DNA of 64,000 bases from Verrucomicrobiota bacterium (GTDB lineage: Bacteria; Verrucomicrobiota; Verrucomicrobiia; Verrucomicrobiales; Verrucomicrobiaceae). Numbering within the stretch: the stretch's first letter is position 1; every line of letters begins with the position of its first letter. The notes beneath the pieces were generated by a model. That model searched no databases. It was given only the letters and a program-made list of their open reading frames with translations, and was not told where the DNA came from. This document shows positions 4,598-48,698 of this stretch, one piece after another. A program made the translations under genes and the position numbers. The DNA lies in assembly GCA_025360015.1 (NCBI GenBank), contig JANYCZ010000059.1, forward strand, positions 1-64,000, in the 5' to 3' direction.

Positions 4598-5638
4598 ATG
4601 AACATACCCTTTCGTTTCACCACCTGCCGCGCCGGATCTGAAGCCACGCTCAAGCGTGACATCGCCAGCCACTTTGCCGGTGAACTCAACCCTGCGTTCA
4701 TGAAGCCGCAGTTCATCACCTGGAAGGTGCGGCATCCAGGCTTCAGCCCGCCGAAGAACCTCAGCCACTTCGCGCGCGTCAGCGGCATCTCCATCGGCCT
4801 GTGCAAAACCATTGGAGAACTCGTCGAGCACGCCCGCCAGTTCGGCACCAAGCCGCTGCGCCTGCATGTCTTCCCCCGCATCACAGCCGAAGACGGCGTA
4901 GAAGCCGCCACCTGGCAGCGCATCGACACCCTCGCCGCTGAAATCACCAGCGTGCTGGAGCAAGCGGGCATCCCTCTCGAAACCAAGTTGCCCCTCGCTC
5001 ATGGCGATCTGATTCTGGATGTCATCGTCGGCGAAACTGCGGAAGAGCCCCTCTTCCTCGGCAGCCACGAGCACCAGCCGGGCATGCACGCGCAGCCCGG
5101 CGGCCTGCCACGCATTGCCTTGCCGGAAGACGTACCCTCACGCGCCTGGCTCAAATTTGAACAAGCCCTCGCCTGGCGCGGCTGGGATGAACTCGATCTG
5201 CGCGGGCAGACTGCGCTCGACCTCGGCTGCGCCCCCGGCGGAGCCACCTACGCCCTGCTGCAGCGCGGCATGAACGTCCTCGGCATTGACACCGGCGAGA
5301 TGGACCCGCGCGTGCTGGAGATCGCCAAAACGCAAGGCGTCCGGTTCGACCACTGGCGCACCGCCGCAGGCCGGCTCAATCTCACAGCCCTGCCGAAAGA
5401 GGTCGCTCTGCTGCTCTGCGACATCAATCTCGCCCCGCCGCTGGTGATTCCCGAGATCCAGCGCATTCAGGATGCCGTGCAGGCCCGCCGCCTGATCCTC
5501 ACGATCAAGCTCAACACCCCTGCCCTCGAAGATCGCGCCCACGAGTTCATCGACACGATCCGTGATTTCGCCCCCGCTCCCGTGTTTGCCACGCAGCTTG
5601 CAGGCAATCGCCGGGAGATATGCATCTGCGCCGGATAG
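4598..5638 (+). CDS. SAM-dependent methyltransferase, RlmM/FtsJ-like
   Basis: LDLGCAPGGATYALLQRGMNVLGIDTGEMDP SAM-binding motif and RlmM-like layout; start at MNIPFRF. Confidence 0.75.
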   Translation: MNIPFRFTTCRAGSEATLKRDIASHFAGELNPAFMKPQFITWKVRHPGFSPPKNLSHFARVSGISIGLCKTIGELVEHARQFGTKPLRLHVFPRITAEDGVEAATWQRIDTLAAEITSVLEQAGIPLETKLPLAHGDLILDVIVGETAEEPLFLGSHEHQPGMHAQPGGLPRIALPEDVPSRAWLKFEQALAWRGWDELDLRGQTALDLGCAPGGATYALLQRGMNVLGIDTGEMDPRVLEIAKTQGVRFDHWRTAAGRLNLTALPKEVALLLCDINLAPPLVIPEIQRIQDAVQARRLILTIKLNTPALEDRAHEFIDTIRDFAPAPVFATQLAGNRREICICAG

Positions 5639-44261: not shown

Positions 44262-44336
44262 GAGCTGACCACTGCCGTAGCAAGCTGAAGACTTCAACAA
44301 TCAAAAGCGATGGCGCGACCACGCGCACTCAGTCGC

Positions 44337-44355
44337 AGCCGCGCAAGTCGCGGCT
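44337..44355. repeat. Perfect hairpin upstream of the HUH-protein gene
   Basis: AGCCGCG-CAAGT-CGCGGCT, 7-bp stem. Confidence 0.75.
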
Positions 44356-44413
44356 CCTCGCATACTCGGGCTTCGCAGCCAACCCGTTTCGCAGGAGGTT
44401 CTCATTTCCGAGG

Positions 44414-45769
44414 TTGCCGGGGACTAACCACTATTCAGGGCCGGGGCCTGGCTTGATGCCATGCCTCCGGCCCGGTGGTCACGATGCGTTCATGATGCCG
44501 CCGCTCCCTGCATTCCTGCCGGTGCGCTGTGGCCTGCAACCTTCACGCCGTGCGCCCCCATGCCCCTTTCATGTCCTTCTGCTGCAACAACCACAACCAC
44601 CGCGACACCCTCAGCCCGGCAGGCCGGGAAGGAAGCCGGAGGCGCTTTCCCCGGCCTGCCGGGCCGGGGCTGCGGGCTTGTCTAAGCAGCATAATAGAAC
44701 ACTCACCCCACATGCCCCGGCAACGTTGCGCTGGTTCCCCGGTGCGTCGTTGATTGATATTGAGCTGCCTGCGCACCACTCGGACATACGGAAGCGCAAG
44801 CAGCAGCCCCGGGGCCGCATCAAGGAATGGAGCGCCGCCAGCCGCTCCCGTTTGAAGCACACCCTCGGCAGGCTCCAGCGCAAGGAACTGGGCCGCGCCA
44901 TGCTCGTCACCCTCACCTATCCGTTGGAGTGCCCGGCACCCGATGACCACGAAGTTTACAAGGCCCATCTGCACCGGTTCAACATGGCCTTGCGCCGCCG
45001 CTGGCCGCTCTGCTCGGGCATCTGGAAGCTGGAGTTCCAGACACGCGGCGCCGCGCATTACCACTTCATGCTCTTCGGCCTGCATGACGAACCGCTCGAA
45101 GCTCTGCACACCTGGACACGCAAGACCTGGTATCGCATCGCCCACAATGGCGACAAGCATCTGGGCGCATCATGCGAAAAGGTTGAACCGGTTAAAAGCA
45201 CCGGCGGTTCCATGGGCTATTTTGCCAAGTATATCGGCAAGGGAGATCAGACCATGCCGGGGAACTTCAGCGGCAGATACTGGGGCAAGGTCAATGCTGC
45301 ACACCTTCCCACCGCTGCTTCAAAGAGCATCGAGGTGCCGCACAAAATCGCCGCCACCATCCGCCGCATCGCTCGCAAAAAGATGCAGAGCGATGTCAAC
45401 ACCGCCTGCTGGAAGCGCTGGCTGGAGCACCGGCGCAAGGACGGGTTCCGGTTCAGCCGCTTGCAATGGGAGCGCGCCATGGGCCAGCACCACGGCGGCG
45501 CTCAGCGCATCGCCCTTTGGGAGCACGTACCCGCCGTGCGGTTCTTCGATGAGGGCGAGTGGTGGCACCTTTCCGCCCACCACCTGCGCATGCGCTACGA
45601 CCTCGACCACTTCCAGCAAATCATGAAGGACCACCCGCTGCCCAAACGCTGGCGGCTCCGCGACAATGACCGCGTCCGCCTGCTCTGCGACGCCTCCTCG
45701 TTCATCGCCGCTCTCGCTCGGCTGGACAAGCCGGAGGGGTGTTTTCTGACGTTCTCTCAAGCGGGTTGA
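44414..45769 (+). CDS. HUH-type rolling-circle replication initiator-like protein (REP_ORF2/G2P-like); true start probably internal
   Basis: Motif I AMLVTLTYP (44897-44923), motif II HYHFMLF (HUH, 45056-45076), motif III YFAKYIGK with candidate catalytic Tyr/Lys (45218-45241). The first ~100 residues are low-complexity and coincide with a long palindrome, so initiation is likely downstream. Confidence 0.75.
   Translation: MPGTNHYSGPGPGLMPCLRPGGHDAFMMPPLPAFLPVRCGLQPSRRAPPCPFHVLLLQQPQPPRHPQPGRPGRKPEALSPACRAGAAGLSKQHNRTLTPHAPATLRWFPGASLIDIELPAHHSDIRKRKQQPRGRIKEWSAASRSRLKHTLGRLQRKELGRAMLVTLTYPLECPAPDDHEVYKAHLHRFNMALRRRWPLCSGIWKLEFQTRGAAHYHFMLFGLHDEPLEALHTWTRKTWYRIAHNGDKHLGASCEKVEPVKSTGGSMGYFAKYIGKGDQTMPGNFSGRYWGKVNAAHLPTAASKSIEVPHKIAATIRRIARKKMQSDVNTACWKRWLEHRRKDGFRFSRLQWERAMGQHHGGAQRIALWEHVPAVRFFDEGEWWHLSAHHLRMRYDLDHFQQIMKDHPLPKRWRLRDNDRVRLLCDASSFIAALARLDKPEGCFLTFSQAG
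44615..44663. repeat. Perfect 14-bp GC-rich inverted repeat upstream of the HUH domain
   Basis: CCCGGCAGGCCGGG (44615-44628) and CCCGGCCTGCCGGG (44650-44663) are exact reverse complements. Confidence 0.9.
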
Positions 45770-45776
45770 CCTGGCT

Positions 45777-45793
45777 CCACCGCTTCGCGGTGG
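45777..45793 (+). terminator. Hairpin just downstream of the HUH gene, possible terminator
   Basis: CCACCGC-TTC-GCGGTGG 8 bp after the stop; no strong U-tract. Confidence 0.45.
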
Positions 45794-45891
45794 ATGGCTC
45801 GAAGACCCACCATGCCCGCGTCCGGCGGCCCATGATCAAACTCTTACCTCAAACAAGCTGGCACGTCCCGCTATTGGTTAGCGCGAGAGGG

Positions 45892-46260
45892 TCATTTTAA
45901 TTGGTTCATTTCCCTCAAAACAGTGTCCGTTAAGTCCGAAACATTGTCAAAATCGCTTATGAGCAGGTCAAAGCTGTAATCCGAATCAATCATATGGAGA
46001 CTTACGGGATAGCCTTTCTGGATGCGAAACGCTAAGTCAATGCCTGCATTTCCCGCGCCCGAAAGCGCTATGCTTTCTAAATCGTCCTTGAGTTCAACAA
46101 TTGTGCTGTCGCCGCCGTGGTCGTAGCGCCCCTTGAGGGAAGCGCCATCATCAGGCGATTCTTCGATGTTACTAATCTCACTAATTGTAGAAAAGAGTTC
46201 CCTTACTTTTTCACGGTCGAACACTTTTCCCTCGTCGATATATAGCATGAAGAAGTTCAT
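45892..46260 (-). CDS. Candidate immunity protein for the adjacent Rhs-type toxin
   Basis: 122-aa acidic protein; start ATG overlaps the toxin stop (ATGA, 46257-46260), the standard toxin-immunity order. Confidence 0.6.
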   Translation of the reverse strand: MNFFMLYIDEGKVFDREKVRELFSTISEISNIEESPDDGASLKGRYDHGGDSTIVELKDDLESIALSGAGNAGIDLAFRIQKGYPVSLHMIDSDYSFDLLISDFDNVSDLTDTVLREMNQLK

Positions 46261-47729
46261 CGAATAATAACCCGCCCGTCGAGGTTGTGCTTTTTGAGCA
46301 TATTGAGGAAGAAACTTTCGGCTGCTGGATTGTTGATGATCACTTCAACATCTCGTAGAGGATTGCCGGGGTCTGCAATAATACGCCTCATTCTGGCGAA
46401 CTCATCATCGACCTGCCCAACGATTTTAGTTCGTAAAAAATCAGGGATTTTGGAACCCGGAATGAAAGGGCTGCTTCCGGGTTTCATGATGAACTTTGCT
46501 TCTTGGATCGTCCTTCCGATTATGCCATCGACATCTAGTGTGGTGCCTCCCCCACTGACAGTGTAGTTGTATCGGCCAGTATTTGCGATTTCCCACTGTC
46601 CTGTGACTGTTGTGGTTGGAGTGTTGAATCGCCGCAATGATGCCTTAAAAATCTCCGGTGTTACACTTCCCGCCGTTACAACAGCATTTGGAACCACTCG
46701 AAACGGCTTATACAAAGGCCATCCACCGTACAAGACCGCCGGAGATCGGTTGAACTCCAGCCGCCATGTAATACGATCCAGAAGAGCAGCTGCACTGCTT
46801 GTCATGGCTCCCATAAAGCGGGGGACCTTAATTGGTGCCAACATCACAAGAACATCACCTCCAAGTTTACCTGACCCAGTGATCAAACTGTTATGATCCA
46901 CCTCAGGGTAAATCCCTTCACGAGCCCAGGTCTCGGTGCTTTCGGCATCGAAGTAAGGCTCCATAGATTCATCGCGGTCCCACCCTCTCAGAACTCTGGA
47001 AAAAGTGACGAGAAAATTCGCTATATCCTTAGGAGCTCTGGCAATAGCGCCGCCACCTCCGGCAGCAAGGTTTCCAGCTTTGTGTCCTTCAGTGCCGCTG
47101 TTATAGTCGTCTCCACCCAGCCAACTGTAGTTCGAGGAAACCCCAGGGATGCGCCCCATCCCGTTACGGCCATGGCAAACCATGGTGGGGACTCCCAGAC
47201 CGCCCATGAAGTTCATCATTTGCAGTGGTGGCAGTCCTTCTTGAATGCGCTGCCGGTTGATCGCAGCCAGCTCTTCGCCAGTGACCATCCCCAGATAATC
47301 CCAATTGTTGACCGGATCCCCATTGCAGTAGGCATAGAGGTTCATGCCAACCTGGATCCACACAATGAAGAGGTGGTTTTGGGCATCCCACTGGTACGCC
47401 ATGACCACCACAGTGGCAGGTGGCCTGGTGGGGCCTTCACTCAGGGCTCTGATGCCACGCTTCATGGCGTGGAGACCCTCGGCATCGTAGGTCAATGCCG
47501 CCCACTTTGGCGAGGTGGCCGGGCAGTCTGCATTCTCCCCGAGAGGGAACTGATTCGCCAAGTAGCAGCCGTGCGTTCGTGGGTGATGGCCGCGGTCACC
47601 GATGACCGCCTTCTGGTTACGATGGGCTGCCGCATCGTAGGCGTAGTTGCAGCGCACACCACCCCAGGCGCGGTTTCCCGCGCCAAGGAGCATCAGCAGC
47701 ATCAAGCAAGACTGGAGGATCGACCGCAT
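46257..47729 (-). CDS. Orphan Rhs-type protein: signal peptide + degenerate Rhs core remnant + C-terminal restriction-endonuclease-fold toxin (Tox-REase-like)
   Basis: Signal-like MRSILQSCLMLLMLLGAGNRAWG; Rhs signature MNLYAYCNGDPVNNWDYLGM (47286-47345); C-terminal TTLDVDGIIGRTIQEAKFIMKPGSSPFI (D...QEAK). Confidence 0.7.
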   Translation of the reverse strand: MRSILQSCLMLLMLLGAGNRAWGGVRCNYAYDAAAHRNQKAVIGDRGHHPRTHGCYLANQFPLGENADCPATSPKWAALTYDAEGLHAMKRGIRALSEGPTRPPATVVVMAYQWDAQNHLFIVWIQVGMNLYAYCNGDPVNNWDYLGMVTGEELAAINRQRIQEGLPPLQMMNFMGGLGVPTMVCHGRNGMGRIPGVSSNYSWLGGDDYNSGTEGHKAGNLAAGGGGAIARAPKDIANFLVTFSRVLRGWDRDESMEPYFDAESTETWAREGIYPEVDHNSLITGSGKLGGDVLVMLAPIKVPRFMGAMTSSAAALLDRITWRLEFNRSPAVLYGGWPLYKPFRVVPNAVVTAGSVTPEIFKASLRRFNTPTTTVTGQWEIANTGRYNYTVSGGGTTLDVDGIIGRTIQEAKFIMKPGSSPFIPGSKIPDFLRTKIVGQVDDEFARMRRIIADPGNPLRDVEVIINNPAAESFFLNMLKKHNLDGRVIIR

Positions 47730-47776
47730 TTGAAGTGCCCTTTGTAGCAGGCAGCAGCGGCTAAAGGAAGGAGGAT

Positions 47777-48000
47777 TCACCCCATTTCGCAGCTCAGGAC
47801 TTCAATGCGCCCGCAATGTCCGTCCCTGGTGGCCACGGTCAGCCCCCACTGCATCGCGCAGGCGGCGATCCACATGCCATGTCGTTGTGAGGAATGGGCT
47901 GGCCTGCGGCGGCGAGCTGCGTGCTGATCCTGCGGTAATACCCGGTGGTTGCGTCATCCACGGTGATCAGGGTGATGCCGGCGATGAACGCCTCGGAACA
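47777..48000 (-). pseudogene. VapC (PIN-domain) toxin remnant, truncated and frameshifted
   Basis: SEAFIAGITLITVDDATTGYYRRISTQLAAAGQPIPHNDM, then after a 5-nt shift at about 47873-47877, WIAACAMQWGLTVATRDGHCGRIEVLSCEMG-stop: a typical VapC C-terminus split over two frames. Confidence 0.8.
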
Positions 48001-48124
48001 TCGGAGGTGGCGGAGCGCGGGCTGACTGCGGAGCCCATGCGCGGCGGAACTGCTTGCAGACGCTGCTGGTGAACGTTGGGTGTGGCGGAGTGCCCGGTTT
48101 GCTTCCCGGCTGGTGGTCAGCCAA

Positions 48125-48187
48125 CCCAGGGGAGCCTCGCTAAGGCTTAGCACCCCTGGGCTGCATTACGCAGCCCTTTCAGGGCTG
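48125..48187. repeat. Nested palindromic repeats
   Basis: CCCAGGGG (48125-48132)/CCCCTGGG (48153-48160) enclosing GCTAAG-G-CTTAGC (48139-48151); then CAGCCCT-TTC-AGGGCTG (48171-48187). Confidence 0.88.
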
Positions 48188-48297
48188 GTGTGTGGCGGGA
48201 CGGAGCGGCGAAGAGAACACGGCCCGTGCTAGGAAATGAGAGGTTCCGTTCTCATGGAGGCAGCGAAATGCTGCATTCACCGAAGGCCCTTTAACCC

Positions 48298-48565
48298 GAC
48301 CCGTTTTCAGTTGCTCATGGCACCAGCTGAACATGCCCAATGATACCACGATTCATTGAAAACGGGTCTGCATCTCAGCCCAGCCAGGGAAAGCTTTCTG
48401 CGTGAGATCGTATTCGAGCCGGGCAGAACTCGCGCTGGCATCACTACGCGATGCGAGTGCAATGCATACGAGGGGTGTCGCTGCGCTTAACCCCTCGCTA
48501 CATGCTGGAATGGCTCCGCCATTCATCCGGCCCTATGCAGACCTGTTTTCAATTGATTGTGGTAT
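48298..48565. repeat. Three related copies of a GACCCGTTTTCA element in alternating orientation
   Basis: GACCCGTTTTCA at 48298-48309 (+); its exact reverse complement at 48357-48368; reading 48368-48343 on the minus strand, GACCCGTTTTCAATGAATCGTGGTAT matches GACCTGTTTTCAATTGATTGTGGTAT at 48540-48565. Between them are CGAGGGGT...ACCCCTCG (48469-48497) and GAATGGC-TCC-GCCATTC (48508-48524). Confidence 0.85.
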
Positions 48566-48605
48566 GAGAAGTGGACGGAAACGGCTTTGCGATGAGTGAA
48601 GGTTA

Positions 48606-48686
48606 CTTCTAAAAAGAAGGCGAGGAGACGCTCGGCGGCGGTTGGGGACCAACCGCTCTACCGGTCCAGGGCGAGCTAAAGCTCGC
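48606..48686. repeat. Three consecutive short hairpins downstream of the ABC ATPase gene
   Basis: CTTCT-AAAA-AGAAG (48606-48619), GCGGTTGG-GGA-CCAACCGC (48638-48656), GCGAGC-TAAA-GCTCGC (48671-48686). Confidence 0.8.
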
Positions 48687-48698
48687 TAGTACTTTGGC

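Follow-up and report, generated by a model that had tools for sequence, protein, structure and literature searches.

The window, the whole 64-kb stretch of DNA analysed here, carries a gene for an HUH replication initiator (Rep) inside an inserted island. A toxin-immunity pair (45892-47780, minus strand) lies in the same island, convergent with rep (Table 1). The motifs LVTLTYP, HYHFMLF, and YFAKYIGK, reported in a first-pass annotation of the sequence, are all present in the Rep ORF. The longest possible Rep frame begins with TTG at 44414 and encodes 451 aa. The start codon is uncertain because the long inverted repeat falls inside this frame.

Table 1. Features of the Rep unit and the surrounding island in the window.
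Feature	Coordinates	Strand	Remarks
Inserted island	44305..48695		Ends approximate; between LysM/CHAP gene (left) and ABC-transporter gene (48696 on)
Small 7-bp-stem hairpin	44337..44355		Inside island, outside conserved unit
Conserved Rep unit common to window and G002	44429..45769	+	5' boundary CCACTATTCAGGGCCGG; 85.7% identity over 1348 bp
Long hairpin, candidate double-strand origin	44614..44664	+	15-bp perfect arms, 44614-44628 / 44650-44664
Motif GGGCTTGTCTAAGCAGCATAATAGAACA and small GCTT-GTCT-AAGC hairpin, candidate nick/recognition site	44674..44701	+	
HUH replication initiator (REP_ORF2-G2P)	~44714..45769	+	Start codon uncertain
3' tail: hairpin TCCACCGC-TTC-GCGGTGGA, then TGGCTCGAAGACCCACCATGCC	45772..45828	+	Relatives have a conserved, covarying counterpart after the end of Rep
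Immunity-like gene, 122 aa	45892..46260	-	Putative, from position directly 3' of toxin gene
Orphan Rhs-type toxin	46257..47780	-	Signal-peptide-like start; weak Rhs match
Dispersed palindromic repeat, ~150 bp	48037..48190		Further copies close to related loci in G002, G012, and G013

The island and its Rep protein

In G002, G013, G004, G023, G008, and G011, a gap of approximately 35-95 bp is all that separates the LysM/CHAP gene from the ABC-transporter gene, and in G001 and G012 the two genes are about 0.3-0.5 kb apart (approximately 290 bp or 500 bp). Because the flanks are near-adjacent in these eight relatives, the approximately 4.4 kb containing Rep, the immunity-like gene, the toxin, and the repeat is an insertion, which happened in one or more steps. 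Direct repeats of at least 10 bp were absent between the zones compared at the island ends, and no target-site duplication was identified. A tRNA search and the ORF list gave neither a tRNA nor an integrase in the window; insertion of the window copy at tRNA-Val was rejected since the window has no tRNA. The first-pass annotation was right that capsid, packaging, and plasmid genes are absent from the neighborhood, but it missed the toxin-immunity pair and the island boundaries. The immunity-like gene had no family match. Residues 144-165 of the toxin match the last 22 positions of TIGR03696 (E = 0.0024, under the cut-off), and a comparable orphan, L056 (G034:C7), likewise matches the very end of this model below threshold. 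Rhs matches are clear in G002 and other relatives, in contrast to the weak match of the window toxin.

Several copies of the ~150-bp repeat occur near the G002 Rep locus, one abuts a Rep remnant in G013:C76, and one lies inside the otherwise empty site of G012. Further inverted-repeat-like stretches of the type CCCGTTTTCAGTTG...CAATTGATTG are present at the right end of the island (48300-48600).

Rep matched Pfam REP_ORF2-G2P (PF23343) with E = 6.7e-12 and 46 bits against a cut-off of 27.8; in a genome-wide scan, PF23343 scored 48 bits on Rep. The only other match in the profile search was a weak one to Phage_GPA; Y1_Tnp and Y2_Tnp gave none. PHROG 3419 (rolling circle DNA replication initiation) also matched (E = 9e-7). 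In an AlphaFold model built with nine family members (pLDDT 70), strands and helices follow the HUH order. Its best PDB neighbors are the Rep nuclease domains of parvovirus and AAV, with IS200-type transposases ranking lower, and its best neighbors in the viral library (BFVD) are G2P-type Reps. Foldseek probabilities for HUH nucleases reached 1.0, and E values were about 0.01 in PDB and as low as 7e-10 in BFVD. The candidate catalytic tyrosine is Y169, the first Tyr of YFAKY, which is invariant in the family; the second Tyr varies, and HYH is present. The assignment to G2P-type HUH initiators made in the first-pass annotation is thus borne out by profile and fold.

Rep is present in one copy in the source genome. 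Its nearest homolog is in G002 (81% protein identity), and full-length Rep occurs in just a few of 145 genomes. The family is a genus-level group; the matches beyond it were distant ones in actinobacterial rolling-circle plasmids. No phage relative was detected by sequence in the phage set, the phage records, or the viral contigs, and a phage origin was rejected at this level on the lack of matches in the phage set and viral contigs. An inovirus signature (Zot/pI, coat genes) was sought among the ORFs neighboring Rep and was absent. Rep resembles the REP_ORF2-G2P initiators of filamentous phages (G2P) and small rolling-circle plasmids in HUH motif, fold, rep-adjacent hairpin, and size range, but it is chromosomal and has no capsid, plasmid, or SSB gene nearby. 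It is well supported that Rep is an HUH initiator of the G2P kind derived from a mobile element, an origin that the first-pass annotation had suggested.

Hairpins on both sides of rep

The Rep unit shared by the window and G002 has sharp ends, from 44429 to the stop codon, with unrelated flanks. The 7-bp hairpin named in the first-pass annotation is real, but it lies outside this shared block. The inverted repeat described there as a perfect 14-bp one upstream of the conserved domain is indeed perfect; its arms are 15 bp long, and it is inside the longest possible frame. It is the sole perfect repeat in 64 kb with arms of at least 14 bp and a short loop, and none of that size arose in 30 Markov shuffles of the window. 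The stretch 44615-44713 is 99% identical to G002, with one indel, compared with 82.9% for the coding sequence and 74.4% for third codon positions, which indicates selection on the DNA or RNA itself. When L002 (5700-7056) and the window (44429-45769) are aligned, the hairpin loop differs in length by one base (TTTCCCC versus TTTCCC), which shifts the upstream Rep frames out of step.

A hairpin is conserved in position, with compensatory changes, ahead of every full-length genus relative tested. In relatives at 35-52% identity, a hairpin of other sequence stands at the same place and is followed by GGCTTGTCTAAGNNNCATANTAGAACA, which lies between hairpin and conserved domain in all full-length genus relatives tested. 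Among the tRNA-Val relatives, 6 of 26 pairs are altered on both sides (four sequences, a modest depth). This covariation score was matched by 0 of 500 shuffles, and slid controls gave at most one double-change pair. In 56 genomes, the motif of 44674-44701 was found solely ahead of Rep genes or in one Rep-deleted element (reversed-pattern control, 0). It can be read in frame as GLSKQHNRT (family form, GLSK(P/Q)HxRT), and coding constraint may account for some of its conservation. The covarying hairpin and invariant motif would correspond to the hairpin origin near rep that is expected of a rolling-circle replicon, and the reading of the upstream hairpins as probable origin hairpins of Rep is well supported by these sequence comparisons. 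Neither outcome that the first-pass annotation named as counting against it, homologs without a conserved flanking hairpin or a model without the HUH fold, occurred.

Two other candidates were discarded. Rfam gave microRNA-like matches alone to the hairpin, all sub-threshold, and matches elsewhere to 44438-44464 that looked like left ends turned out to be a coding motif.

A hairpin just after the stop codon, also noted in the first-pass annotation, was found at 45776-45794, within the 3' tail. Rep, entire or truncated at its 5' end, is found away from tRNA genes in G000 (the window), G002, G001, G009, G013:C76, G018, G019, G021, G025, and G034:C7. These copies end mostly in the tail, a covarying hairpin plus TGGCTTGAAGACCCACTATGCC; the tail is absent in G002 and G013:C76, and a pattern search did not recover it in G025 and G009. 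In the tail hairpin, 96% of cells are paired and two pairs have double changes (e.g., A-T to G-C); 14 of 500 shuffles reached its covariation score, and slid versions scored lower. A related small HUH Rep, which is filamentous-phage-Rep-like and has a small conserved ORF upstream, has a similar tail in G042, G021, and G004. The first two of these sites are Rhs loci. The G004 site is not, which argues that the tail belongs to the HUH element and disfavors its being an Rhs component. The structure model of the small Rep was set aside (pLDDT 51).

Rep relatives at tRNA-Val and at Rhs loci

In G012, G013, and G034, Rep resides in elements of 4-6.5 kb bounded by tRNA-Val(CAC) and a copy of the tRNA 3' end. 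They contain a tyrosine integrase, 49-bp end repeats, and varied cargo between rep and integrase. An integrase with att repeats was thus found in all three, and not around the window copy. Small tRNA integrative elements with Rep and a tyrosine integrase have exactly the architecture of these relatives; the window copy differs from them in having neither integrase nor tRNA, and relaxase/oriT is demonstrated in none. G019:C14 holds the remnant of a Rep-deleted element. Most Rep copies outside tRNA genes in relatives are likewise remnants, mostly 5'-truncated. At L023 (7623-7852) and L176 (approximately 5160-5370), a tRNA-3'-end-like sequence is followed by a short peptide (..DLAEVVKAWPVLPLPLRAAVLAVVRSHG), which resembles the C-terminus of an integrase whose frame would run through the attachment site in the circular form. 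The 9.4-kb contig L177 (G019:C17) has filamentous-phage-like genes, among them one that is Zot-like and one for a distant small HUH Rep.

Outside tRNA-Val, the sequence past the end of Rep carries, antisense, an immunity-like gene and then the end of an Rhs core with a variable toxin. The recurring locus order is Rhs core - toxin - immunity - tail - Rep (antisense). Of 19 Rep or tail loci outside tRNA-Val, 13 have an antisense Rhs core motif 0.76-1.64 kb downstream; among the six without one are two that are cut off by the contig end and the window, whose Rhs-like toxin is diverged. The motif was near Rep in none of three tRNA-Val elements and neither of two distant Reps. A genome of approximately 6 Mb has at most 22 Rhs cores, so the probability that a given locus has one nearby in this orientation by chance would be far below 1%. 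Arrays in G025 and G018 repeat the order Rhs core - toxin - immunity - Rep fragment - next core fragment, and Rep remnants form a constant spacer separating different toxin-immunity pairs. The Rep-containing spacers of G025 and G009 are 83-91% identical, and the G025 toxin-immunity pairs on either side differ. In E. coli, H-rpt, a DDE-type insertion sequence next to rhs genes, is likewise a mobile-element remnant 3' of Rhs toxin-immunity modules and between orphan tips; the spacer here is instead an HUH rolling-circle element.

Most Rhs-linked Rep copies are truncated and dead, and two genomes retain a full-length Rep with origin hairpins adjoining the cassette. Most loci of this Rhs subfamily have no large Rep: in 40 additionally sampled Rhs regions, three large-Rep remnants were found at two, and about six regions had the tail, several contigs being short. 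Rep is therefore not required for most Rhs cassettes. A RAYT-like transposase gene or fragment lies in the 3' flank of an Rhs module at L178 (210-1268), and such genes or fragments also occur 3' of Rhs modules in G008, G009, G043, G045, G056, and G104. A search of the literature outside subscription journals found no report of Rhs with HUH, IS91, or rolling-circle elements.

Proposed role in toxin-cassette movement

How polymorphic toxin genes gain their toxin-immunity tips is not fully understood: recombination with standalone cassettes is an accepted route, but the vehicle is rarely known. We propose, with a probability of about 0.4, that Rep is the initiator of a small rolling-circle element linked to the mobility of Rhs toxin cassettes. 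This reading builds on the observed HUH family, the covarying hairpins, the island with its empty site, and the recurring gene order. The hairpin pair immediately ahead of rep (44614-44701) would be where Rep binds, and the nick in one strand would fall in or close to the invariant GGCTTGTCTAAG. Nicking would drive rolling-circle copying, with the 3' hairpin or tail as the other terminus. The family would act in small integrase-encoding elements at tRNA-Val, and in the branch of the window Rep would have become coupled to Rhs toxin-immunity cassettes. A circular copy, if formed, would carry an Rhs-core fragment, the toxin tip, the immunity gene, and Rep. Homologous recombination could insert it at an rhs gene; other chromosomal sites could also receive it, the window being an example. 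The incoming circle would supply a new toxin tip, and Rep, whole or truncated at its 5' end, would stay as a spacer. Transport of cassettes into rhs loci by such Rep-driven circles is what we infer. It is possible, though less likely than not, that Rep circles are dedicated vehicles of Rhs tip exchange, which would replicate, recombine into rhs, displace the old tip, and leave Rep as the array spacer; if they were, an HUH replicon would play an integron-like role for toxin cassette arrays.

The main rival takes Rep for a passive hitchhiker. HUH elements would settle just 3' of immunity genes, where insertion between convergent genes is safe. Rep would have no part in cassette movement; its copying and truncation would be a by-product of Rhs modules undergoing ordinary homologous recombination with one another. 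It is partly favored by the finding of three HUH families (large Rep, inovirus-like small Rep, and RAYT-like gene) in Rhs 3' flanks, as a tolerant target would give. It also accords with the prevalence of broken copies, with the many Rhs loci that have no Rep, and with tip replacement by recombination, which is established without HUH enzymes (PMC3482391). Hitchhiking fits less well with the spacers of one array, whose differences of 9-17% suggest separate arrivals, with the two full-length Reps and origin hairpins beside a cassette, and with the single insertion shared by the window Rep and its cassette. We regard it as a serious possibility that falls short of even odds.

A one-ended rolling-circle transposase of the IS91/ISCR kind, with its start terminus at the 3' hairpin, would make the 5'-truncated copies aborted one-ended insertions that sometimes carried cassettes along. 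IS91/ISCR has in common with Rep an HUH enzyme, a hairpin end on the 3' side of the gene, and variable 5' truncation against a constant 3' end; moreover, the left end common to the window and G002 starts with CCACTAT, a 7-mer also present in the tail (GACCCACTATGCC). Rep differs in matching neither Y2_Tnp nor Y1_Tnp, in being single-copy, and in its tie to Rhs modules. A target of 4 bases would not account for so specific an adjacency to one Rhs subfamily, relatives rely on an integrase, and no transposition is mapped here. This reading is improbable. Still less probable is the remnant of a tRNA-type integrative element that lost its integrase and carried the toxin-immunity pair as cargo. The family does occur in tRNA-Val elements with cargo between rep and integrase, and the small-Rep element of G004 keeps a tRNA-like fragment and an integrase C-terminal-like peptide; however, the window has neither tRNA nor integrase, and the tRNA-Val elements have neither an Rhs neighbor nor the tail motif. 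The mobilization of genomic palindromes by a domesticated RAYT/REP-like HUH protein, raised in the first-pass annotation, agrees with a chromosomal, single-copy Rep beside palindromes, but the genome has no dispersed copies of the hairpin or the tail, Y1_Tnp does not match, and full-length Rep is confined to few genomes. That idea can be almost wholly dismissed.

The proposed link between Rep and cassette mobility suggests that small rolling-circle elements may help spread toxin-immunity pairs. With the same HUH Rep and terminal hairpin at toxin-pair junctions, and a full-length Rep next to a cassette at a site that is cleanly empty in relatives, a specific carrier is now testable. Rolling-circle Reps would thereby gain a chromosomal niche beyond phage and plasmid.
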